Shown: one piece after another, positions 4,066 through 30,293 of the stretch
How the letters are laid out: each line of letters begins with the position of its first letter
How positions within the stretch are numbered: position 1 is the first letter of the stretch
From: a virus
Strand: one strand, 5' to 3'
Length of the DNA: 30,467 bases
Virus record (IMG/VR): IMGVR_UViG_3300021197_000969
Coordinates: 1-30,467 of that record
Made by a program: the position numbers and the translations under genes
Notes under the pieces: generated by a model
Database searches by the model: none
The model's input: the letters and a program-made list of their open reading frames with translations, nothing else
Told to the model about the DNA's origin: nothing

Positions 4066-5274
4066 CTAGGACACGGCAGCCCAAAGAGCTACTGCCATAG
4101 CAGGTCTGAGTACGTTATGACCCATCGCATATTTACTCACGATCAACGTACCTTGTCGTTGGATTTGATACTCAGATTCAACACTGAGATCCAATAGTTT
4201 TGCAGTTGCGACTGCATCTTTATGCATTACCAATGCTCTGATTTTAGTTGCTTCTGTTCTTAATGCTACAGTAGCACCGTTGGCATCAGTAGCAGCACCA
4301 ATGAGGTTATCCCCATCAGAAGCAGCAGTATAGTTTGCAGGGATGTTGTAGACTTCAGCACGATTAGATTCTACTGAACCTAAAGGCTGTGGTCCAGTAG
4401 TTACACCAGTACCCCATAGGGAGTCTGCGTAAGTTGCTCCGTATGTTCCCATGTGTGGAGTACGGACTACAGGAATACCTGCAATGGAAGGTAGTTGCAC
4501 ACTTGTAAAATTACCAGTTCCACCAATGTCACGGTTGAACACAGTTAAATCAGCAAGTGATTCACTGTTAGTCGCAGCCATAAACAATTTGTAGTATTGG
4601 TCTGTACTTGTGACACAAACTAAATCTTCAAGAGGTGCTCCTGCCATTTCCAAAATACGCTTTGCTTCAATGATAGCTTCAGTAAAATACTTTAGCTTCT
4701 TTGAATTAGCAAAAGAACCTATCTCCACGTTTGCTGTGAAGTCTTCATCATCAAAGTTTTTGTAATCTTGAACAAGTTTAGATGCACGTTCTTTATTAGT
4801 AGCAAGTGCAGCTTTTACAGCAGTTCTGATGATGTTTTGATCTGCTACTTTAGACAGACCATAACCAGCTTCCTGAGTATAGACGGATCTGATGTCATAG
4901 TGTTGCATCGCCTCGTCAATATTAGGAATAAACTGAGCATTAATTAAGAGATCGTCTACTGTTACAATTCGCTCAGAATTCTTAGCGGTTGCAGCAGGTG
5001 CAATCTCTTGCCCTGGAGTATGATAGGCAGCATCACGATACTTACCTGTCATGATAAATTGAGCCGACTTCCCTTTAGAAATCGTTCTAGTACGGCAGTA
5101 AGGCATCATGATGTTTTTCGTCTGGAAGGCAGTCATGACCTCGCCTGCGTACAATTTTAAAAATAAACTACGTGCATCGTTGGCAGCATTAGTTTGACCA
5201 CTACGATGTCCTACGTAATCTAAATTATGTCCTGAAGAACCTGGAAAAGGTGACGTTCCTGTAAAAGTAGCCAT
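4066..5274 (-). CDS. Major capsid protein (gp10-like)
   Basis: A 402-residue HK97-fold shell protein of the T7 gp10 lineage. Diagnostic segments include DARSLFLKLYAGEVMTAF near the N-terminus and SKGKSAQFIMTGKYRDAAYH after it, then VDDLLINAQFIPNIDEAM, all strongly conserved in podovirus capsids. The C-terminal third (IQRQGTLIVSKYAMGHNVLR) matches the end of that family. The gene follows the scaffold gene after a 118-base gap that may hold a weak phage promoter, and is followed by inverted repeats. The ribosome site is only A-rich (CTAAGAAAAAA), weak for such an abundant protein. Confidence 0.96.
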   Translation of the reverse strand: MATFTGTSPFPGSSGHNLDYVGHRSGQTNAANDARSLFLKLYAGEVMTAFQTKNIMMPYCRTRTISKGKSAQFIMTGKYRDAAYHTPGQEIAPAATAKNSERIVTVDDLLINAQFIPNIDEAMQHYDIRSVYTQEAGYGLSKVADQNIIRTAVKAALATNKERASKLVQDYKNFDDEDFTANVEIGSFANSKKLKYFTEAIIEAKRILEMAGAPLEDLVCVTSTDQYYKLFMAATNSESLADLTVFNRDIGGTGNFTSVQLPSIAGIPVVRTPHMGTYGATYADSLWGTGVTTGPQPLGSVESNRAEVYNIPANYTAASDGDNLIGAATDANGATVALRTEATKIRALVMHKDAVATAKLLDLSVESEYQIQRQGTLIVSKYAMGHNVLRPAMAVALWAAVS

Positions 5275-9147: not shown

Positions 9148-9150
9148 TGG

Positions 9151-9166
9151 TTAATAATGGCCCTTT
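9151..9166 (-). promoter_or_regulatory. Putative phage RNA polymerase promoter, virion module
   Basis: One of three exact copies of a 16-bp sequence, AAAGGGCCATTATTAA on the minus strand. The transcribed direction is downstream into the virion genes. Read this way, AGGGC plus CATTATTA resembles the AGGGCACACTATA core of the phage K11 promoter, a T7-family promoter. Its first base is shared with the reductase stop codon. Placement at the start of the late genes matches a class III promoter. Confidence 0.65.
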
Positions 9167-17169: not shown

Positions 17170-17300
17170 AATCTCCTTGAGAAATGGTTTATAAGATAGT
17201 TGACATCTACACCGTGCTCTAAGAGCTTAGCTTCAACATCAACTGGAATAGGTTGATCTTCACGTATCAACCGTTTAACTGTTTTTATTAAGTTAGACAT
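17160..17300 (-). CDS. Small unknown protein ahead of SSB
   Basis: A 46-residue frame, MSNLIKTVKRLIREDQPIPV then DVEAKLLEHGVDVNYLINHF and SRRLWQ. It begins 11 bases downstream of the putative phage promoter and ends 10 bases inside SSB, whose ribosome site it contains, so it looks like a genuine leader gene of the DNA module. Two amphipathic helices are likely. No ribosome site is clear before its own ATG. Similar short proteins occur at this place in marine T7-like phages as I recall; function unknown. Confidence 0.6.
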   Translation of the reverse strand: MSNLIKTVKRLIREDQPIPVDVEAKLLEHGVDVNYLINHFSRRLWQ

Positions 17301-17310
17301 AGTTTGATAG

Positions 17311-17326
17311 TTAATAATGGCCCTTT
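17311..17326 (-). promoter_or_regulatory. Putative phage RNA polymerase promoter, DNA metabolism module
   Basis: Second exact copy of AAAGGGCCATTATTAA (minus strand). It lies between the RNA polymerase gene and the SSB module, the place of class II promoters in T7, and points into that module. It is six bases downstream of a sigma70-like -10 box, so early and middle promoters are stacked. Confidence 0.65.
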
Positions 17327-17332
17327 GATGTT

Positions 17333-17362
17333 ATTATCTCACAAGTAACTGAATTTATGCAA
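17333..17362 (-). promoter_or_regulatory. Sigma70-like promoter P5 ahead of the DNA module
   Basis: On the minus strand TTGCAT, an 18-base spacer and GATAAT preceded by TGA, an extended -10 form. The segment TTGTGAGATAAT is nearly the one in the early promoter at 25898 (ATGTGAGATAAT). The -35 overlaps the last codons of the RNA polymerase gene. Confidence 0.45.
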
Positions 17363-19793
17363 AAAAATACTTAGACCCAATGATAGCATCTAGGTCTAAG
17401 TTCCCTTTCTTTGGAGGTCTTGGAACCTCATCCAATACTTCAAGGGCAGATTGACGAAAATCCTCCAAAACGTCATATTGCTTGTATAGATTTATAAATG
17501 CTTCTCTCAAGCGTTTTGCCATAATTGGAGTGTTTGCTGCATGAGTTCCATACGAATCATGGATCATACAATATGAATCAATACCGTCATTATCGCACAT
17601 GTGGACGGTATTTGTCAAGGCACAGGCATCTAAAGCGTGAACAAAATTAGGTGCTGACCCATTAACTGCACGATTTCTATCTATATTTCCGTTGTCTTCA
17701 CTCGCTAATGTTGGACGGATTAATGTCCCATCAATTGTAGTCTTTATCCTATGTTTTTTAATATTAGGATACTGCTGATACACTACAAAGTCAGTTGGAG
17801 TTTTCCATACTAAAGGAAGATTCTTGGTGGATATTTGTTTAGCGACTTCACGGACCCACTTCATAGCTTCTCTTGCTGAGACTACAATTTCACTGATTGC
17901 TTCCCAAACAAATTTAGAGATCCAATTTATAGGTACATAAAGTTGCTGTCCTTCCCACGGATTTCTTGATCCTTTGTAAAACATATCCCTAACATAATCT
18001 TCTATGTAATTTCTACATGAAAACATTGTTCCACCATACGGAACCACCATCACAGGACGTTTAGTCATCTTTCTGTTGATGAATCCAGTATTTAACCACT
18101 TTTTAGCCATATCATCTCCTTCATAAGCAAGTTTGGTAACTTGTTCTAAAGTATGATCTGCGACATCTTGATATATGTCTTGTGGTGTTCTCTCTGGAGT
18201 AAGGTTAGTAGCCTTACCTCCTACTGGACAACGTAACATAGCACTATAGTGCTGTAGTCCGTTGTTAGATCCGTCTAAGGCAATAGGAAGACATGATTTG
18301 TACCCCTTACCATATCTTTTGTATTCCATCCATTCATGACAGAAAGCGTAGAACAACCAGGGGTCATCCATCTTCTGCCAAAACTCACATTTTAATCCGT
18401 TCTGGGCCGACTGTATAATTGCATCATTATTATCTCGTACAAATTTAACCCTGTCGTAGTAGGAAACTTTATCTATTCCTGCACAATTAGCTCCGTGTAT
18501 AGCAAGCCAATCCTCTTGTTCCTCAGTTTCTATAGGTTTACCTTCAGCAAATGTTAGCAACGCTTTACTGTATTCTGGACCTTGTGGGGTCAAGAAGGCA
18601 GGTATAGTGTACTTTCTCCCTCTAAAATCTGCATTATGAGGAAAATAGAATTCTTTATATTGAGTATATTCATCTGCTATTTTTATAGTCCTTAAAAATT
18701 GAATTACTTTGCTTGTTCTTCTAACATTCTCCGCATAGATCTCTGATGCTGTAATCTTCCACGTTACAAACTGTTCAAATGTTTCCTTGTCCATGTCCTT
18801 TTTCTTTAAGCCAGAAGGAACAGGTGAAGGTGGTATGTCAATAGATTCTCTACTAGGAAGAGATCCTATTTCTTTGTAGTCATTCCAGGCAATTTTCTGT
18901 GCTTCGTATACAGGTTTATTTATAGCCCACTTCGTTTTTTGTAATGAATTTACACACTCATATTCAATACCGTAATCTAACTTCTCTAAGTCTTCCATTA
19001 CTCCACGGTTCCTAACTTTCACAAAAGGAAGTCTACTGGATAAATAACCTCCATTGTGAAAGTTAGTCCAATCTTTAGGTGGTACTATCATAGGCTTAAA
19101 TGATGGACTAAGTACCTCACCTTTGGAATTTACTTTATTAATCCAATCAATACATTTTTCTGTAGCAATTAAAGCTAGTTCACGCTTGTTACGTGCATGG
19201 GTCATTACTTGTATTCTTACTAATCCAGTAGAGAGTACAAGAAGGTCTAACATCTTTGACCCAACATGTATTCGTTCTTTCACAGACCAGAAATCTAATT
19301 TTTCAACATCTATAAGTGTTTTACACTGTCTAATAAGACCATATCTTCTAAAATGCCTAGATGATGTTCTTTTAGATAATTTTTCTTTTAAATATTGAAA
19401 GGTTTTTCTATCAGTGTCCTCCCATAATTTAAATTTAATTTGATCCTCAATAGCCTGTCCAATTTTACCTGCTACAGCAGTAAAAGATTTACGATACGAT
19501 ATACCATCAACAGTAAGTTTTAATGCAATGTAAGAAGCTACAGTAGGATCAACTTGTATTAATAAAGATGCAGTGTGATGCTTTTTACCTGCTTCACCAT
19601 TGAAGGCATCTTTAAGATACTTTTGTAGCTTTTTTTCTAAAGCATCTACACTGTGTTTCATCAACATAATTCCGTGTAATGATACACTCTCAGTGCTTTT
19701 ACTTTTATGCTCTCTTACCTGCTTTCTGTACTTCTCAATTCCATGATTAACCATACCTTCTTCAAGGCTTAGTTGCTTTTCTTCCAAGTTCAT
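17355..19793 (-). CDS. Single-subunit DNA-dependent RNA polymerase (gp1-like)
   Basis: An 812-residue T7-type RNA polymerase (T7: 883), the defining enzyme of this phage group. Catalytic landmarks: ALDGSNNGLQHYSAMLR (motif A Asp), NRKMTKRPVMVVPYGGTMF (motif B with Lys and Tyr), and CMIHDSYGTHAAN (motif C His-Asp). The specificity-loop region precedes RNRAVNGSAPNFVHALDA, and the C-terminus ends in FFA like the FAFA foot of T7. It would transcribe middle and late genes from the 16-bp motif found three times here. Its ATG overlaps the stop of the 83-residue gene (ATGA), so it is made by coupling. Confidence 0.97.
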   Translation of the reverse strand: MNLEEKQLSLEEGMVNHGIEKYRKQVREHKSKSTESVSLHGIMLMKHSVDALEKKLQKYLKDAFNGEAGKKHHTASLLIQVDPTVASYIALKLTVDGISYRKSFTAVAGKIGQAIEDQIKFKLWEDTDRKTFQYLKEKLSKRTSSRHFRRYGLIRQCKTLIDVEKLDFWSVKERIHVGSKMLDLLVLSTGLVRIQVMTHARNKRELALIATEKCIDWINKVNSKGEVLSPSFKPMIVPPKDWTNFHNGGYLSSRLPFVKVRNRGVMEDLEKLDYGIEYECVNSLQKTKWAINKPVYEAQKIAWNDYKEIGSLPSRESIDIPPSPVPSGLKKKDMDKETFEQFVTWKITASEIYAENVRRTSKVIQFLRTIKIADEYTQYKEFYFPHNADFRGRKYTIPAFLTPQGPEYSKALLTFAEGKPIETEEQEDWLAIHGANCAGIDKVSYYDRVKFVRDNNDAIIQSAQNGLKCEFWQKMDDPWLFYAFCHEWMEYKRYGKGYKSCLPIALDGSNNGLQHYSAMLRCPVGGKATNLTPERTPQDIYQDVADHTLEQVTKLAYEGDDMAKKWLNTGFINRKMTKRPVMVVPYGGTMFSCRNYIEDYVRDMFYKGSRNPWEGQQLYVPINWISKFVWEAISEIVVSAREAMKWVREVAKQISTKNLPLVWKTPTDFVVYQQYPNIKKHRIKTTIDGTLIRPTLASEDNGNIDRNRAVNGSAPNFVHALDACALTNTVHMCDNDGIDSYCMIHDSYGTHAANTPIMAKRLREAFINLYKQYDVLEDFRQSALEVLDEVPRPPKKGNLDLDAIIGSKYFFA

Positions 19794-20041
19794 ACGAATG
19801 GTCTGTTTTTGTCTGCTTGGTTAGAACCTTTAGTTTTGTTTTCACCGTACCCATCTTCCTGCCACGTTTTAATCATGTTCCGTATGCCTCTGACACTGCT
19901 TTCAAGTTGCTCAAGGGCAAGCAGAATAACATCCAACTGTGGAGTTGGAGCTAAATAGTCTTTATGTGTTTTCTGTCCCAAATCTGTCCCAAGGCTAAAA
20001 GTTGTCTCATTAGTGAGAATAGATAAATATCTACAACACAT
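19790..20041 (-). CDS. Small unknown protein coupled to RNA polymerase
   Basis: An 83-residue frame ending in an ATGA overlap with the polymerase start, which supports it. The second half is a plausible helix (LDVILLALEQLESSVRGIRN) with a polar, lysine-rich tail. The first half contains SLGTDLGQ, translated from two of the TGTCCCA repeats that flank attP; the integrase C-terminus contains GTDLGQ for the same reason. The ATG at 20041 has no ribosome site and a candidate promoter lies across the start, so the true start may be further in. Confidence 0.5.
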   Translation of the reverse strand: MCCRYLSILTNETTFSLGTDLGQKTHKDYLAPTPQLDVILLALEQLESSVRGIRNMIKTWQEDGYGENKTKGSNQADKNRPFV

Positions 20042-20054: not shown

Positions 20055-20092
20055 TCACTTGGCTACTATTCTACATGTGAGTTTAATACAGC

Positions 20093-20135
20093 TAGATTTC
20101 GAGTCTACCGCCTTCGACCACTCGGCCATCTCTCC
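20093..20135 (-). other. attP core: 5' half of tRNA-Ser(CGA)
   Basis: The 43 bases read on the minus strand fit the 5' part of a serine tRNA: acceptor GGAGAGA, TG, D-arm GCC...GGC, G, anticodon stem GTAGA, loop CTCGAAA with anticodon CGA, and TCTA of the other stem strand. The next base is G where C is needed, and no variable or T arm follows, so it is not a tRNA gene. Lying ten bases after the integrase stop, it is the expected attachment site, identical to the host gene over this stretch. The anticodon loop flanked by TAGA/TCTA is the likely crossover. Confidence 0.8.
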
Positions 20136-20144
20136 GCAGTAATA

Positions 20145-21197
20145 TCAATGGGTTAGGGAGTTAGAGTTTTTTAAAATCTGTCCCATCTGTCCCATTTTGT
20201 CCCTCATCTGTCCCAAATCTGTCCCAGGACGTATCAGTACAGATATGTCTTCTGCACCGAAATCAGGAGCTAGATGGGAGTATCTCTGAGTCATGGTTTG
20301 ATCCTTATGACCCATTAATTTTTGTACATTATATATTGGCCTTCCTGCTTGCACTAAACGTGAAGCAAAAGTGTGTCTTAATGTATGAATACTAACATCT
20401 GGATAACCTAAGTCATTAGATGCTTGTTTCATTAATCTTCTCATCCAAGAATAGGACAAACTAAATGGAGTTTCATTATATGGGTCCATCATTTGTCTTC
20501 TTCCAATCATCTCCAATACTCTAGGAGTTAATGGGACTGATCTTGGCTTGTCAGCTTTGTTTACCCATATCCTAACAAAACCGTCCATATAATCATCTAT
20601 AGGTACTGAAAGCATTTCACTTACTCTCATACCTGTATCTAAACCTAGAACAAACAAATCACACATCTGTTCATGGTTAACTGAAAAGTAAGTTAAATAG
20701 TTGTCCTCTTCATCATAAGTCAACCATCTAATCTTACCTTCAGGTTCATCCTGCCATGAAATACTAGGCACTTGATTACACTTATTATAAGTTCTTGCTG
20801 TTGTCATGATTTTACTTAAACATGAGAACTTACGATTAATTGTTCCACTCTTATTACCTTTGAGCTTACAATGAAGCATAAACTCACCCACTCTTTCAGA
20901 AGTAATCTCATCTAACAGTGTATCTTCACCAAAATACTCCATAAGTTGTTTACCATTAATACGTTGAGTTTTTTCTCCACGTGTTCCTGCCCATTCAAGC
21001 TCATAGGTTTTGTGAAATCCTTCACTAAGAGTCCATACATCCTTTTTCAAAGTTGTAGTGATACCGTTACGTAATTTAAACATCATATCCTTCTCCCATA
21101 AAACAGCATCATGCTCTGTAGGAAAAGTTTCACGGTATCTAGTACCTTTGAAAGTAAAGTCTGCTCTGAAGGAATCTTTTCGTTTTCTAACGCTCAT
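20145..21197 (-). CDS. int: Tyrosine integrase
   Basis: A 350-residue phage integrase. The N-terminus MSVRKRKDSFRADFTFKGTR is an arm-binding AP2-like domain; a SAM-like core-binding domain spans about residues 60-150; the catalytic domain shows LGLDTGMRVSEML (first Arg), a Lys in VNKADKPRSVPLTP, HTLRHTFASRLVQAG (H-x-x-R), GHKDQTMTQRYSHLAP with the nucleophile Tyr. It recombines attP with a host tRNA-Ser. The last 25 residues (MRDKMGQMGQILKN and before) are encoded by TGTCCCA repeats, so the tail may be shaped by DNA-site needs. It overlaps the winged-helix gene by 11 bases. Confidence 0.95.
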   Translation of the reverse strand: MSVRKRKDSFRADFTFKGTRYRETFPTEHDAVLWEKDMMFKLRNGITTTLKKDVWTLSEGFHKTYELEWAGTRGEKTQRINGKQLMEYFGEDTLLDEITSERVGEFMLHCKLKGNKSGTINRKFSCLSKIMTTARTYNKCNQVPSISWQDEPEGKIRWLTYDEEDNYLTYFSVNHEQMCDLFVLGLDTGMRVSEMLSVPIDDYMDGFVRIWVNKADKPRSVPLTPRVLEMIGRRQMMDPYNETPFSLSYSWMRRLMKQASNDLGYPDVSIHTLRHTFASRLVQAGRPIYNVQKLMGHKDQTMTQRYSHLAPDFGAEDISVLIRPGTDLGQMRDKMGQMGQILKNSNSLTH

Positions 21198-21534
21198 TTA
21201 ATATATCCACAATAGATTTGATAAAGAGATCTCCTTTTTGAGTCATCGAAACTAATTTCTCTACTCTGAACTCTGGATTCTCCTCAGTCTTGAGAAGCCC
21301 ATGACCTGTACTTTTATTTCGGTTACGTTCACAGTATGCCATAATATTACGAGAAGCTGAACCAGAAGCCTGACCTGCTAATGATCCTAATGCTTTTACT
21401 GATTTTGGTTTTTTAGGGTCTTGCATTGCAGCTTCTAACAGAATTAATACTGTAGGAATTTGCATCTCAACGTCAAGCTCTTGAAATCTATTCATGATTC
21501 TAGTAAGCTTACGTAATTCTTCATTTTGTGCCAT
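21187..21534 (-). CDS. Winged-helix (MarR-like) DNA-binding protein, candidate lysogeny regulator
   Basis: A 115-residue protein directly upstream of and overlapping integrase. From about residue 25 it follows a MarR-type plan: helix MQIPTVLILLEAAMQ, second helix VKALGSLAGQASGSASRNIM (turn and recognition helix), and a wing in LLKTEENPEFRVEKLVSMTQ followed by KGDLFIKSIVDIL. The N-terminal helix could dimerise. Position next to int suggests a repressor, or a directionality factor; it is the only clear small DNA-binding regulator in the window. Assignment is by pattern, not search. Confidence 0.65.
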   Translation of the reverse strand: MAQNEELRKLTRIMNRFQELDVEMQIPTVLILLEAAMQDPKKPKSVKALGSLAGQASGSASRNIMAYCERNRNKSTGHGLLKTEENPEFRVEKLVSMTQKGDLFIKSIVDILNER

Positions 21535-23358: not shown

Positions 23359-23599
23359 TGTTATTCTCCAGCATTTTCACTAATGCTACAGAAGCACGTT
23401 GAACCTCTTTAGCCATATCAACCGCATCCCAACATCTATCCTTCCAGACAATGTGATGCCATCCTGTATGGTCTTTACCTATGTACCGTCCTTGTCGGCC
23501 CTTGTACTTGAGCCATTGTCCACGTTGAGCTATTTGAAGAATAGCTAACATTCCTCTCGCATTAGAGGTATTTGCACTTACTTGATTAATATATTGCAT
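23351..23599 (-). CDS. Unknown early protein
   Basis: An 82-residue protein: GMLAILQIAQRGQWLKYKGR, QGRYIGKDHTGWHHIVWKDR, then a helix CWDAVDMAKEVQRASVALVK. A small Trp-rich beta core is likely. Two starts are possible: Met1 at 23599, or Met17 at 23551, which has GAGAGG just before it. A TTGACA/TATATT promoter lies across the first codons, and transcripts from it would only contain the Met17 start. Confidence 0.6.
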   Translation of the reverse strand: MQYINQVSANTSNARGMLAILQIAQRGQWLKYKGRQGRYIGKDHTGWHHIVWKDRCWDAVDMAKEVQRASVALVKMLENNNG

Positions 23600-23616
23600 A
23601 GTTATTTCTATGTCAA
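23588..23616 (-). promoter_or_regulatory. Sigma70-like promoter inside the early operon
   Basis: Minus-strand TTGACA, 17-base spacer and TATATT: a perfect -35 and a five-of-six -10 match. It lies in the only non-coding gap of this stretch, just after a hairpin. Transcription would begin inside the 82-residue gene. Confidence 0.4.
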
Positions 23617-23630
23617 GGTTAAAATTACAT

Positions 23631-23646
23631 GTAGATGAATATCTAC
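23631..23646 (-). terminator. Short hairpin after the HhH gene
   Basis: GTAGAT-GAAT-ATCTAC is a perfect six-base-pair hairpin overlapping the stop of the HhH gene; the minus-strand transcript continues ATGTAATTTT. The stem is AT-rich, so this would be a weak terminator or a processing signal. Confidence 0.3.
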
Positions 23647-24227
23647 GCAGTTAGCCATTGAGGATGAAGACTAGACAAATGTTCACCATCAATGAGTTTA
23701 GGCATTTCCAAGGGTCTTGCACTGCACCATTGATCCCACAATACCCTTGGACCACCTACCTTCTCGCAGAACTCAATATAATCAACGCATTTTCTACGTT
23801 GAGTTTCTATTGAATTACCTGCACATTGCCATCTTGAAGGAGTACCCTTCTTAGGGTCTTCATCAGGCATATATTTACGGATATTGTGGACATCTATACA
23901 TCCAACCCATCCTGCCATTAGTTGAGCCACAAACGAGGCTTTAACTGGTCCCAAACCTGGAACCTGTACCCATCTCAATACGAAGTCTGCTTTAGCATTC
24001 TTCTTTTTACTTTTAATGAGTTTCATAGATTCATTATACAACTCATAGCGGTTTTCATAGACATAGGAAGCACCTTTACTTTTTCCTTCCCATTTCTGTA
24101 TTGACCGCATTTGAAAACCGTTTTTACGGTAATCATCCATGATCCCACACAGTTTATCGGTTCTTTCACGTATGCTTGCAGAAACTAAAGCATATCCCTG
24201 CATCATACCATCAACCGATCCCTGCAT
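23643..24227 (-). CDS. Helix-hairpin-helix DNA-binding protein, possibly DNA glycosylase-like
   Basis: About 194 residues from the chosen ATG at 24227, which forms a TAATG overlap with the previous gene; an in-frame ATG at 24263 overlaps more. The centre has VQVPGLGPVKASFVAQLMAG, a helix-hairpin-helix (PGLGPVKA), followed by CIDVHNIRKYM. In HhH-GPD glycosylases a hairpin GxG..KA is followed by a short loop and a catalytic Asp in V-D-x-H-x-x-R; here IDVHNIR fits. The rest has no family I recognise. It may act on damaged or modified bases, or only bind DNA; catalysis is unproved. Confidence 0.6.
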   Translation of the reverse strand: MQGSVDGMMQGYALVSASIRERTDKLCGIMDDYRKNGFQMRSIQKWEGKSKGASYVYENRYELYNESMKLIKSKKKNAKADFVLRWVQVPGLGPVKASFVAQLMAGWVGCIDVHNIRKYMPDEDPKKGTPSRWQCAGNSIETQRRKCVDYIEFCEKVGGPRVLWDQWCSARPLEMPKLIDGEHLSSLHPQWLTA

Positions 24228-25897: not shown

Positions 25898-25926
25898 ATT
25901 ATCTCACATGTGATGTAATATGTCAA
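25898..25926 (-). promoter_or_regulatory. Sigma70 promoter P4 with operator-like palindrome
   Basis: Minus-strand TTGACA, 17 bases, TGA-GATAAT: a perfect -35 and an extended -10. The ten-base palindrome TCACATGTGA (25904-25913) fills the spacer next to the -10. The TGA within TTGACA is also the stop codon of the upstream 116-residue gene. Confidence 0.7.
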
Positions 25927-26273
25927 GACTTATATGATCCACGATGTACTCGACACCTAATATAATCATTATATGAATCATATCCTTCACGTTCCCACTT
26001 TGGAACGGATACATCTTTTTCTACTGTCATTGTAGATATGATTATCTTTTCACCATTCCTTTTGCGAATGGATCTTATCTTCTTTTCCTGTACCTTTGAA
26101 GAACGCTTGGAACCATTACGATCAATGGCTTTTTTCCATTCTTCAGTTCGCTTATGGTTCAAGAATGCTTTCACATTTTGAACTGGCTCAACATTCGTAT
26201 TACGGAATGATTGAGTCTTTACAGCGACTTTTGAGCTTGGTACAGGAAGCACTACATATTGAGTAGCTTCCAT
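25923..26273 (-). CDS. Unknown basic first early gene
   Basis: A 116-residue, strongly basic protein with no recognised family. Residues 50-75 are Lys/Arg-rich (GSKRSSKVQEKKIRSIRKRN), the end is DSYNDYIRCRVHRGSYKS. It is the first sizeable gene after promoters P1-P3, the place where T7-like phages keep host-takeover proteins such as gp0.3. GGAG five bases before the ATG supports the start. Nucleic-acid binding is likely from charge; a role in host takeover or defence evasion is inference only. Confidence 0.65.
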   Translation of the reverse strand: MEATQYVVLPVPSSKVAVKTQSFRNTNVEPVQNVKAFLNHKRTEEWKKAIDRNGSKRSSKVQEKKIRSIRKRNGEKIIISTMTVEKDVSVPKWEREGYDSYNDYIRCRVHRGSYKS

Positions 26274-26312
26274 AACGCTCCGTTTTAGTTGTTTTAACTC
26301 ATCATGTATAAC

Positions 26313-26342
26313 ATTATCTCATGTATGAGTTTATATTGTCAA
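26313..26342 (-). promoter_or_regulatory. Sigma70 promoter P3 with operator-like palindrome
   Basis: Minus-strand TTGACA, 18 bases, TGA-GATAAT. The spacer carries CTCATGTATGAG (26319-26330 region), a near-perfect palindrome beside the -10. It reads into the 116-residue gene, whose ATG is about 40 bases downstream. Confidence 0.7.
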
Positions 26343-26425
26343 GACTTTTTTTGCTTTATCTTAAAAATAACGTCCATTAATAGGACTTTATTCCATAATA
26401 ATGCTTGCATGTCTTCTGAATACAT
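26339..26425 (-). CDS. Possible 28-residue peptide
   Basis: MYSEDMQALLWNKVLLMDVI then FKIKQKKS, with AAAAGG six bases before the ATG. Its stop codon TGA is again part of a promoter -35 (TTGACA of P3), as for the 116-residue gene at P4. Amphipathic helix with a basic end. Size makes it uncertain. Confidence 0.3.
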   Translation of the reverse strand: MYSEDMQALLWNKVLLMDVIFKIKQKKS

Positions 26426-26558
26426 TTTTACCTTTTACTGTGTTTTACTGTTATCAAGACTTATAAATCATCTTGAGTTGATACTATATTAATATGAGAC
26501 TTTCTCACTCAGTCCTGAATCGACAGGTAGCGTGGTGTGCTTTCGTCTCATGTTTAAT

Positions 26559-26587
26559 ATCGTCTCATATCTGATTTAATTTGTCAA
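26559..26587 (-). promoter_or_regulatory. Promoter-like element P2
   Basis: Minus-strand TTGACA, 17 bases, TGA-GACGAT. The -35 is perfect, the -10 hexamer poor (three of six) but with the same TGA extension and the same spacing as P3/P4; the spacer has TCATATCTGA. It may be a weak promoter or an operator repeat. Confidence 0.4.
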
Positions 26588-26636
26588 GAGTTATTTTTGA
26601 ATGAATCAAAATGAATCAATCAATTGAACTGTGAAG

Positions 26637-26665
26637 ATCGTCTCACATGTAGAAATATCGGTCAA
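26637..26665 (-). promoter_or_regulatory. Promoter-like element P1
   Basis: Minus-strand TTGACC, 17 bases, TGA-GACGAT; the spacer contains CTCACATGTAGAA, a 13-base match (inverted) to a site beside attP at 20069-20081. Same architecture as P2. Confidence 0.4.
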
Positions 26666-27137: not shown

Positions 27138-27153
27138 TTAATAATGGCCCTTT
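27138..27153 (-). promoter_or_regulatory. Putative phage RNA polymerase promoter after large terminase
   Basis: Third exact copy of AAAGGGCCATTATTAA, six bases past the terminase stop and pointing into the gene-free region. T7 carries its phi-OR promoter in the corresponding place, next to the concatemer junction, where it serves replication and packaging rather than gene expression. Confidence 0.6.
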
Positions 27154-27159
27154 CCTACA

Positions 27160-28821
27160 CTAAAACCACGTAGGCTGTTTATTTTCAACGTATTCTGTAC
27201 CCATTATACCATTCACAAACTTCTCTAACTCCAGATCGAACAATTCATCCCTTCTATCCCTTATCTCTATGTCTGCATCAGCAGCCATCTGGTCAACCCA
27301 GTATTTGACAGCCATTGCAAGTGCATCAAGCCTATCATCTTGAGTCAGAGCACCTTTGTCACGTGTGATCCTGGTCATCTGATGCATCAGCATGTACTTG
27401 GACTGTGATTCACTTGGATAATGTTGCACAGTCTTATAGTCATTTTCAATAACTTTAGGATCAATCACCAACCTATGAGAATTCATCACAGGTTCAATTG
27501 TGTCACATATACGTCTTTCTTTCTGTACATTAGAACGTATCTCCTCCATTGTCACTTGATAGATTTTCAATAACACTGGTTTCCACAGTTCCATGAACAT
27601 CCCATCTCCAAAGTTACTTTCAATCACTATCATATTGACAGCATTACGTTTGGCTATAACCGACAATGCTCTCAGGTTTTCTTCATTATATCCGCCTTGT
27701 ATCCCACCGCATTCTGTGACATAGAGGTATCCATTCAGCATTTTGACTACAGCATAACCGCATTCATCCCTTCCTCTTCCACTTGGGTCAACAGCCATCA
27801 CACTTCCAGTGTATTTTAACCAATCCCCTAACTTAGTCTCAGGCTTGTAATATCCATCCCCAGGAAGTCCTACATTCGGAAGGTCTGTAATTTTATTATT
27901 GCTGTCTCTACTCCACACTGGCTTTTCTGGAGCAGTTGAATCATCACAAGACATTATAATAAGGTCACTCAGTTTCAATGGGTATCTATCTGCATCAGAA
28001 AGGCTTGTGTCTAACTGAAACTGTAAATTGAACCCTGACCTACCATAAGACAATTCTCTTTCAAGGAGATCCTCGTCATCAAACCTCAGAGGGTCTGTAG
28101 GATCACCTTCCTTTTTATACTTATCTAAGTTTTCCTGAATAAAGGGTGATAGACGATTATTGTATCTGAGTAGTTGCTGATGTGTAGGGTATCTACTAGG
28201 CCAGATCCGTGTCTCGTACCCTCTATCTGGAAGTGTTTCGTACAGTGACATTTCAGTTTGAGGTGTTCCCAGGTACACTATAGTTCCATCTGGTTTGAGT
28301 ACAGCATCAAACTCCTTAACAGCCTCACTCAGCTTGTCTCTCATGGTCTGAGTCATACTGTTATTAGGTACTTCCACATCGTCTGCTACAATAAGGTCTG
28401 CTCTGGACCCTGAAAGTTGACCTGTGATTCCTACACTTTTTACAGATGGGCTGTGAGAAGCCTTAGAAGGGCCAACATCAAACGAAACTTTTGACTGCCT
28501 CTGTCCCTCACGTGATCGTAAATGATGCAGCACAGGCAGTTCTGAGATCAATCTCTGGGTAAATGTAGAGAAGTCATCTGCTCGAATCTTACTTGCTGAT
28601 ACCACCAGCACTTTTGCTTCAGGATCTTTTAACAATCTCCATGTGACATAAGCACTGGTAATATAGGATTTACCCACTCCTCTGAATGCTTCAACGACTG
28701 CACGTTTTGGTGAGTTTTGAAGATATTCAGCTATGTCGTACTGTACTGGTGTAGGATCTGGAAGATTCAGGTGTTTCCAGCATAGATAAAGGTAGTTCCT
28801 GAAGTCTCCCAGTTGGTTCAT
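27160..28821 (-). CDS. Terminase large subunit (gp19-like DNA maturase B)
   Basis: A 553-residue packaging motor, near T7 gp19 (586). The ATPase has VVEAFRGVGKSYITSAYV (Walker A) and ADLIVADDVEVPNNS (Walker B), then VYLGTPQTEMSLYETLP (motif III). The nuclease domain begins AVDPSGRGRDECGYAVVKML, with further acidic residues in IVIESNFGDGMF and DDRLDALAMAV. It translocates DNA into the prohead through the portal and cuts concatemers. The ATG shares a base with the zinc-ribbon gene stop (TAATG). It ends just before the third phage-promoter copy. Confidence 0.96.
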   Translation of the reverse strand: MNQLGDFRNYLYLCWKHLNLPDPTPVQYDIAEYLQNSPKRAVVEAFRGVGKSYITSAYVTWRLLKDPEAKVLVVSASKIRADDFSTFTQRLISELPVLHHLRSREGQRQSKVSFDVGPSKASHSPSVKSVGITGQLSGSRADLIVADDVEVPNNSMTQTMRDKLSEAVKEFDAVLKPDGTIVYLGTPQTEMSLYETLPDRGYETRIWPSRYPTHQQLLRYNNRLSPFIQENLDKYKKEGDPTDPLRFDDEDLLERELSYGRSGFNLQFQLDTSLSDADRYPLKLSDLIIMSCDDSTAPEKPVWSRDSNNKITDLPNVGLPGDGYYKPETKLGDWLKYTGSVMAVDPSGRGRDECGYAVVKMLNGYLYVTECGGIQGGYNEENLRALSVIAKRNAVNMIVIESNFGDGMFMELWKPVLLKIYQVTMEEIRSNVQKERRICDTIEPVMNSHRLVIDPKVIENDYKTVQHYPSESQSKYMLMHQMTRITRDKGALTQDDRLDALAMAVKYWVDQMAADADIEIRDRRDELFDLELEKFVNGIMGTEYVENKQPTWF

Positions 28822-29803: not shown

Positions 29804-30235
29804 TTAAAATTTAGATATAAATCTTGATATGTGGTGAATAAATGGAAGAAGAGTTAATGCCATAAACATATTAACTCCTGTGTGAACCATTGCTATGTGT
29901 CGAGTAGTTCCTTGTGGAATACCATCATGAAATGCAGCTAACCATATAGTCCCAGTAGTCCCTATATTTGCACCAAGAACGCAAGCTATTGCAGAGGGAA
30001 GTGGAAGAGCACCACTTGCAACTAAACCTACAATTGCAGCGGTACTTAGTGAACTACTTTGCCATAAAAGTGTCATAATTATTCCACCTAAAAACATATA
30101 ATATGGATTACTCATGAAGTACTGAAGGTGCTCAATATTACCCATTGATTTTATACCACCAGCAAACATTTTTAAACCAATATAGAAGATTATTAAACCT
30201 CCTAATGTAGTTATAATTGGATTAGATGTTATCAT
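29804..30235 (-). CDS. Half-size Na+/phosphate cotransporter-like membrane protein
   Basis: About 143 residues with four or so membrane spans. It matches one repeat of the Na/Pi cotransporter family (NptA/YjbB, SLC34): LGGLIIFYIGLKMFAGGIKS, LLWQSSSLSTAAIVGLVASG with the QSSS signature, VLGANIGTTGTIWLAAF, and RHIAMVHTGVNMFMALTLLP. Whole transporters have two inverted QSSS repeats in over 300 residues; here only one. It may pair as a dimer, associate with a host transporter, or serve another membrane role such as lysis. The first codon could be the ATG at 30235 or a GTG at 30238. Confidence 0.75.
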   Translation of the reverse strand: MITSNPIITTLGGLIIFYIGLKMFAGGIKSMGNIEHLQYFMSNPYYMFLGGIIMTLLWQSSSLSTAAIVGLVASGALPLPSAIACVLGANIGTTGTIWLAAFHDGIPQGTTRHIAMVHTGVNMFMALTLLPFIHHISRFISKF

Positions 30236-30293
30236 CACATGAACAGGGGTAACTATGACATTCAGGACAAAAGGGAATTTTCTTTTCGTCCAT
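30222..30293 (-). CDS. Cys-rich microprotein B (CPxCx4CxC)
   Basis: A 23-residue frame, MDEKKIPFCPECHSYPCSCD then DNI, overlapping the transporter start by 14 bases. CPECHSYPCSC has the same Cys spacing as the 18-residue peptide immediately upstream, which argues against chance. Four Cys could hold one zinc ion. Very small, so translation is unproved. Confidence 0.4.
   Translation of the reverse strand: MDEKKIPFCPECHSYPCSCDDNI

Follow-up and report, generated by a model that had tools for sequence, protein, structure and literature searches.

In the current analysis we have identified palindromic elements in the spacers of tandem early promoters of a T7-like phage, and these elements are likely, with a probability of about 0.75, to be the operators of the phage's own MarR-like lysogeny repressor of the family PHROG_9665, which would silence the early promoters read by the host as well as the gene of the phage RNA polymerase (RNAP). 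The window, which refers here to the whole stretch of DNA analysed, is an IMG/VR virus record of 30,467 bases with all its main genes on the minus strand. The first-pass annotation had suggested such a role for the palindromes, with the gene product of 21187-21534 as the candidate repressor, and this is well supported by comparison, because copies of the element devoid of a -35 box occur at RNAP, the layout recurs in phage LUZ100, and the dyads are associated with the regulator family and co-vary with it. Its description of the control as undescribed is too strong, since a MarR-like control of the phage RNAP with sites flanking the RNAP promoter has already been proposed for integrase-carrying T7-like phages (PMC10134795, citing its reference 14).

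The regions and genes of relevance in the window are the following.
28821-27160, minus strand: terminase large subunit
about 26700-21900, minus strand: early region
21187-21534, minus strand: MarR-like winged-helix regulator of 115 residues, assigned to PHROG_9665 by profile match, candidate repressor
20145-21197, minus strand: tyrosine integrase, overlapping the end of the regulator gene
20089-20129 (approximate), minus strand: 5' half of a tRNA-Ser gene, about 41 bp, read from the sequence, probable attP core
17355-19793, minus strand: T7-type single-subunit RNAP

The regulator gene (21534-21187) is thus followed by the integrase (21197-20145) and by RNAP (from 19793), downstream of which helicase/primase and DNA polymerase are encoded. 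The tRNA-Ser half behind the integrase probably marks attP, because it occupies this place and is retained in three relatives (L083, L084 and L224); ARAGORN reported no whole tRNA in the window and the tRNA-Ser identity was read from the sequence. An integrase search in viral contigs gave no matches. As known from the genes of this metagenomic contig, the combination of a T7-type RNAP, a T7-type terminase, a tyrosine integrase and an attP in a tRNA gene is that of a temperate T7-like phage, i.e. of Autographiviridae with a lysogeny module. The closest named phages, in terms of the window terminase, are the Roseobacter phage CRP-125 and pelagiphages. The window also encodes, adjoining the endolysin gene, a protein of 144 residues (29804-30238) with a Na+/Pi-cotransporter domain (PF02690, E-value 4.8e-18), which is possibly an auxiliary gene for phosphate uptake.

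Four early promoters of sigma70 type, TTGAC-N17/18-TGA-GAYRAT, are located downstream of the terminase, each with TGA directly 5' of the -10 box.
26637-26665, minus strand: P1, TTGACC-N17-GACGAT, spacer ending in TCTACATGTGA, an imperfect operator
26559-26587, minus strand: P2, TTGACA-N17-GACGAT, spacer ending in TCAGATATGA, an imperfect operator
26313-26342, minus strand: P3, TTGACA-N18-GATAAT, spacer palindrome CTCATACATGAG
25898-25926, minus strand: P4, TTGACA-N17-GATAAT, perfect spacer palindrome TCACATGTGA

All four elements described in the first-pass annotation, with TTGAC(A/C), spacers of 17-18 bases and a TGA-extended -10, have been found in place on the minus strand. The pattern TTGAC-N13..15-TGAGAYRAT has 3 matches in the window against 0.01 expected from shuffles, a count that omits P3 on account of its longer spacer of 18 bases. 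The further claim of a palindrome in each spacer holds strongly for P4, which is perfect, and for P3, which is nearly so; the palindromes of P1 (TCTACATGTGAGA) and P2 are imperfect, 3 of the 6 pairs being complementary in either. The TGAGA/TCTCA unit said to recur nearby is indeed present at 26495-26507 (TGAGACTTTCTCA) and near 26547, where 26544-26558 holds a second copy of ATGAGACGA at 17 bp from the P2 -10. Neither is kept in relatives, and because the element downstream of P2 is not retained there these copies may be incidental.

Tandem promoters made up of CTTGACA, 17-18 bases and TRTGAGATAAT occur downstream of the terminase in the related contigs L002, L003/L004, L005, L006 and L007 and in the early region of L083. 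Close relatives retain the -35 box, TRTGAGATAAT and the palindrome of P4, the arms of which are perfect in the window, L002, L003/L004 and L083 (TCACATGTGA or TCACTTGTGA). Elsewhere the left half drifts, and this includes the P3 place, where relatives have CCTGGATGTGA or CCTGTATGTGA; a check on whether relatives keep the spacer palindromes therefore comes out positive at P4, while at P3 only the right half has survived. More distant terminase relatives (65-70% identity) have arrays of TTGACA and TGnTATAAT with other spacers and without the palindrome.

TRTG preceding the -10 box is a recognised form of the extended -10, because of which conservation of the right half could reflect the promoter and by itself proves nothing. 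The possibility that these are ordinary tandem early promoters, with TRTGAGATAAT as an extended -10 and with palindromes that arose by chance and by descent of duplicated promoters, deserves consideration on these grounds. It draws support from the palindrome-free arrays of the distant relatives, from the loss of the left half at P3 and from the frequency of this type of -10, TTGACA..TRTGAGATAAT being matched in at least 120 stretches of viral contigs. The spacers of the clade are nevertheless more palindromic than those of unrelated sites with the same boxes: 25 distinct promoters from seven related contigs, window included, average 2.80 of 6 pairs, whereas 121 unrelated viral sites average 1.74 of 6 (p=5e-5), orthologous sites among the 25 not being independent. 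The control comprises the 121 distinct spacers among the matches listed for TTGACA-N12/13-TRTGAGATAAT in the viral collection, with the left half left free. Also speaking against ordinary promoters is one promoter of L223 that retains TCTCACATGTAG with a different -10, CATAAT.

Copies of the element that the first-pass annotation does not mention have also been identified around RNAP and close to the lysogeny genes, and are given here together with a fifth host-type promoter.
20001-20018, minus strand: candidate operator upstream of the RNAP gene, between integrase and RNAP, TCTCACTAATGAGACAAC, no -35 box
17335-17352, minus strand: candidate operator centred 11 bp after the RNAP stop codon, TCAGTTACTTGTGAGATA, no -35 box
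20070-20081, minus strand: CTCACATGTAGA, identical to TCTACATGTGAG of P1, adjoining attP between integrase and RNAP
23588-23616, minus strand: P5, TTGACA-N17-TATATT promoter, kept in L083, L084 and L223, spacer without operator

TGTGAGATAAT without a -35 box thus occupies two fixed places, before the RNAP start and directly after the RNAP stop. The first copy lies 26 to about 200 bp from the RNAP start in the window, L083, L084 and L224, and reads TCTCACACGTGAGATAAT in L084 and CTACATGTGAGATAAT in L083 and L224; the second reads ATCACTTGTGAGATAAT in L083, L084, L222 and L223. Both places are occupied in the window, L083 and L084, and one or both in L222-L224. Among 300 loci, YCACNNGTGAGATAAT is confined to the clade of the window. 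The sites, their conservation and their recurrence at RNAP are direct observations, and copies devoid of a -35 box at RNAP are not predicted by a reading of the elements as promoters only. About 15 bp upstream of the -35 of P5 lies a variant, ATCTACATGTAAT (~23624-23636), which is an element of ATCTACRTGTRAT type. P5 is a candidate promoter of the lysogeny module and may supply regulator and integrase in the lysogen.

Two further matches were rejected as sites. One, TGTGCGATAAT at 17589-17599, has a TTGACA upstream of it and belongs to a conserved part of the RNAP coding sequence (17583-17618), which in L083 and L084 as well as in the window resembles TTGACA-N18-TGTGCGATAAT and has CCACATGTG within the spacer; the other, CGTGAGATAAT at 24226, also falls within conserved coding sequence. 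Coding constraint is the probable reason in both cases. The repeat AAAGGGCCATTATTAA is found at 27140-27160, 17300-17320 and 9150-9165 of the window and is probably a promoter of the phage's own RNA polymerase. Sequences of the phage RNAP promoter type, AAAGGGCCATTATTAAC, are repeated around RNAP, the first one just behind the post-RNAP operator.

The regulator matches the PHROG_9665 profile with an E-value of 1e-15 in the window, 4e-15 in L083, 6e-15 in L084, 8e-38 in the pelagiphage HTVC019P, 2e-30 in LUZ100 and 2e-13 in Rhizobium phage Pasto. No significant Pfam match has been obtained for the window regulator, those of LUZ100 and Pasto matching MarR_2 below the cut-off. The tblastn search with the window regulator matched no named phage; searches with the HTVC019P and LUZ100 regulators do reach named phages, and P-SSP7 gp0.7 is related. 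An AF2 model based on 20 aligned relatives is a MarR-type winged helix with a pLDDT of 92.4 (52 when only three sequences were used). The best matches of the model among solved structures are MarR-family repressors, DNA complexes among them: Foldseek gives MexR (2.5e-5) and MarR (1.8e-4), and VIA-align superposes the model on MepR-DNA with a Z score of 12.8 and an rmsd of 2.2 over 104 aligned residues.

For a wider comparison we have considered 80 RNAP-coding viral contigs together with named phages, with regulators and integrases identified by profiles, and have counted complementary pairs across each axis in a region that begins 45 bp ahead of the RNAP stop and extends to 105 bp beyond it. 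In the regulator-coding phages a single axis, at +11 relative to the stop, stands out. If a dyad is defined by 5 or more of 8 pairs at axis +10/+11, it is present in 22 of 35 regulator-coding and in 0 of 14 regulator-less phages (Fisher p=3e-5), counted among phages with RNAP identity below 90%, with HTVC011P placed in the regulator group by the position of a gene that has no PHROG_9665 match and with L223, a clade member that has lost the regulator, omitted from the regulator-less group. Against a background of 8% from the other axes the 22/35 corresponds to a binomial p of 7e-16. The proportions are 12/19 versus 0/7 below 50% RNAP identity. Since the axis had been picked from the data themselves, 2000 randomly shifted sets served as a control, and no axis in any of them exceeded 12 (22 observed). 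A search for the best dyad within 30 bp after RNAP with the axis left free did not separate the groups (p=0.13).

Upstream of RNAP, the 18-mer found behind RNAP recurs more than control 18-mers of the same phages do (Wilcoxon p=2.5e-6), and this holds for the early region too (p=0.002). This position-fixed test supersedes an earlier 16-mer reuse test, which was not significant for the window and was confounded by the phage RNAP promoters repeated around RNAP. Similarity of the operators follows similarity of the regulators beyond that of RNAP (partial rho 0.25, p=0.003, partial Mantel, 31 phages), and the association of the dyads with the regulator family and this co-variation are likewise observed directly. 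When recognition helices and half-sites are grouped by eye, QSSVSRN goes with TATCCGC or TATGCAC, QTTINR with CTAACC or CTAGCC, and SGSASRN of the window clade with TCAC. Three integrase-carrying T7-like contigs (L280, L298 and L300) have neither a detectable PHROG_9665 regulator nor a post-RNAP dyad, and they may use another switch.

LUZ100 resembles the window in being T7-like, in the PHROG_9665 MarR-like regulator directly upstream of the integrase, and in an element repeated in host promoters and around RNAP. Its host promoters P1 and P2 have been mapped by cappable sequencing and P3 experimentally as the regulator promoter, the MarR sites were left undefined and no lysogens were obtained (PMC10134795). 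We have identified TATCCAC-N3-CGCA in the spacers of LUZ100 P1 and P2; of its further copies two precede RNAP, one closely follows it, and others precede SSB and DNA polymerase. The main text of the LUZ100 paper (PMC10134795) has no report of the element in the P1/P2 spacers or after RNAP. The operator sequence, CTATCCAC-N3-GCGCATA, is unrelated to that of the window, and the LUZ100 regulator promoter was mapped whereas its counterpart P5 is predicted. HTVC019P/HTVC011P and the Rhizobium phages Pasto and RHEph01 also carry integrase and MarR-like regulator genes side by side upstream of RNAP, and have a dyad after the RNAP stop that is repeated upstream of RNAP; GTCACTCAAGGGTGAC of Pasto and CATCCACGAGTGAAT of RHEph01 flank RNAP on either side and also occupy several intergenic places of the early region. 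Their half-sites differ from those of the window, and a clear fit to a -35/-10 spacer is apparent in a minority of them at most. The dyad of Pasto is further from the RNAP stop, and the HTVC011P regulator has no PHROG_9665 match.

The recurrence of the layout with unrelated sequence in LUZ100 and the other phages, and dyads that track both the presence and the sequence of the regulator, make ordinary promoters an unlikely account of the palindromes. A little less likely still is that they are operators of a host transcription factor or of another phage protein: many short early genes could code for DNA-binding proteins, and yet the post-RNAP dyad goes with the PHROG_9665 regulator and its sequence co-varies with it. 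It is very improbable that the dyads act in RNA, as RNase III sites or terminators after RNAP, with coincidental copies in the promoters. T7 has an RNase III site after its RNAP gene, the dyad lies directly after the RNAP stop, and some dyads, such as CTATGCACACCTGCATAG of HTVC019P, could form a hairpin. Against this, the window clade and LUZ100 have the element between the -35 and -10 boxes, upstream of the would-be transcript, its core CAC-N2-GTG would give a hairpin loop of two bases, which is too tight for RNA, and it is inverted near RNAP in several relatives. Most remote of all is the idea that the attP-side copies are arm-type sites of the integrase and that the promoter copies reflect integrase-based control; CTCACATGTAGA does adjoin the tRNA-Ser half site, but the distance from attP to the post-RNAP and promoter copies is 3-6 kb, and there is no copy of ACATGT type next to the attP of L084.

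The repressor-operator reading has its own difficulties. At P1, P2 and several promoters of relatives the dyad has a weak left half, and promoter selection explains part of the conservation, because the right half coincides with the TRTG-extended -10. A position of the operator between -35 and -10 of early promoters is apparent in a minority of the other phages at most. L223, a near relative (RNAP 78%), keeps the post-RNAP operator without a regulator, and a recent loss has to be assumed. This natural deletion has removed most of the regulator gene, the remnant reading FVQSLIDILNEH before the stop, along with the tRNA-Ser attP half and the pre-RNAP operator (L223:3600-3680 and 4600-4853), and has left the integrase frame intact. 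The joint loss of regulator, attP half and pre-RNAP operator speaks for the repressor-operator reading. L223 looks like a phage that recently left temperate life.

From these comparisons we infer that the regulator binds the elements, represses and gives immunity. A dimer of the repressor bound at TCAC-N2-GTGAGA would occupy both the spacer and the -10 box of P1-P4 and thereby exclude the host sigma70 RNA polymerase from the early region. Bound before and after RNAP, the repressor would also block the expression of RNAP and of the first genes driven by the phage promoter AAAGGGCCATTATTAAC. In a lysogen the whole lytic cascade would be held off, with immunity to phages sharing the operator, while P5, with no operator in its spacer, may feed the regulator-integrase operon as P3 does in LUZ100. 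Repressor CI of lambda acts at OR on palindromic operators overlapping early promoters, by which lysis is held off and immunity is given. The proposed repressor would resemble it in acting on such operators in the window and would differ in its MarR fold in place of the lambda-type HTH, in operators that also flank the phage RNAP gene and in having no known Cro-like partner.

A text search of PubMed Central found no paper describing these operators, part of which may already be contained in Boeckman et al. (reference 14 of the LUZ100 study). What appears to be new is that operators lie within tandem early promoters, that one follows RNAP at a constant distance, and that operator and regulator co-vary. 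We slightly favour a general arrangement in which the operators of temperate T7-like phages follow a common layout governed by one MarR-like repressor family, with sites in early-promoter spacers, before RNAP and ~11 bp behind RNAP, and in which operator and recognition helix co-evolve into immunity groups. These results address the open question of how integrase-carrying T7-like phages, which are abundant at sea (pelagiphages, roseophages, cyanophages), hold lysis off. With candidate operators for some 35 phages and the likely reading residues, repression, immunity groups and the loss of lysogeny, as in L223, become directly testable, and repressor-operator pairs of differing sequence are useful regulatory parts.
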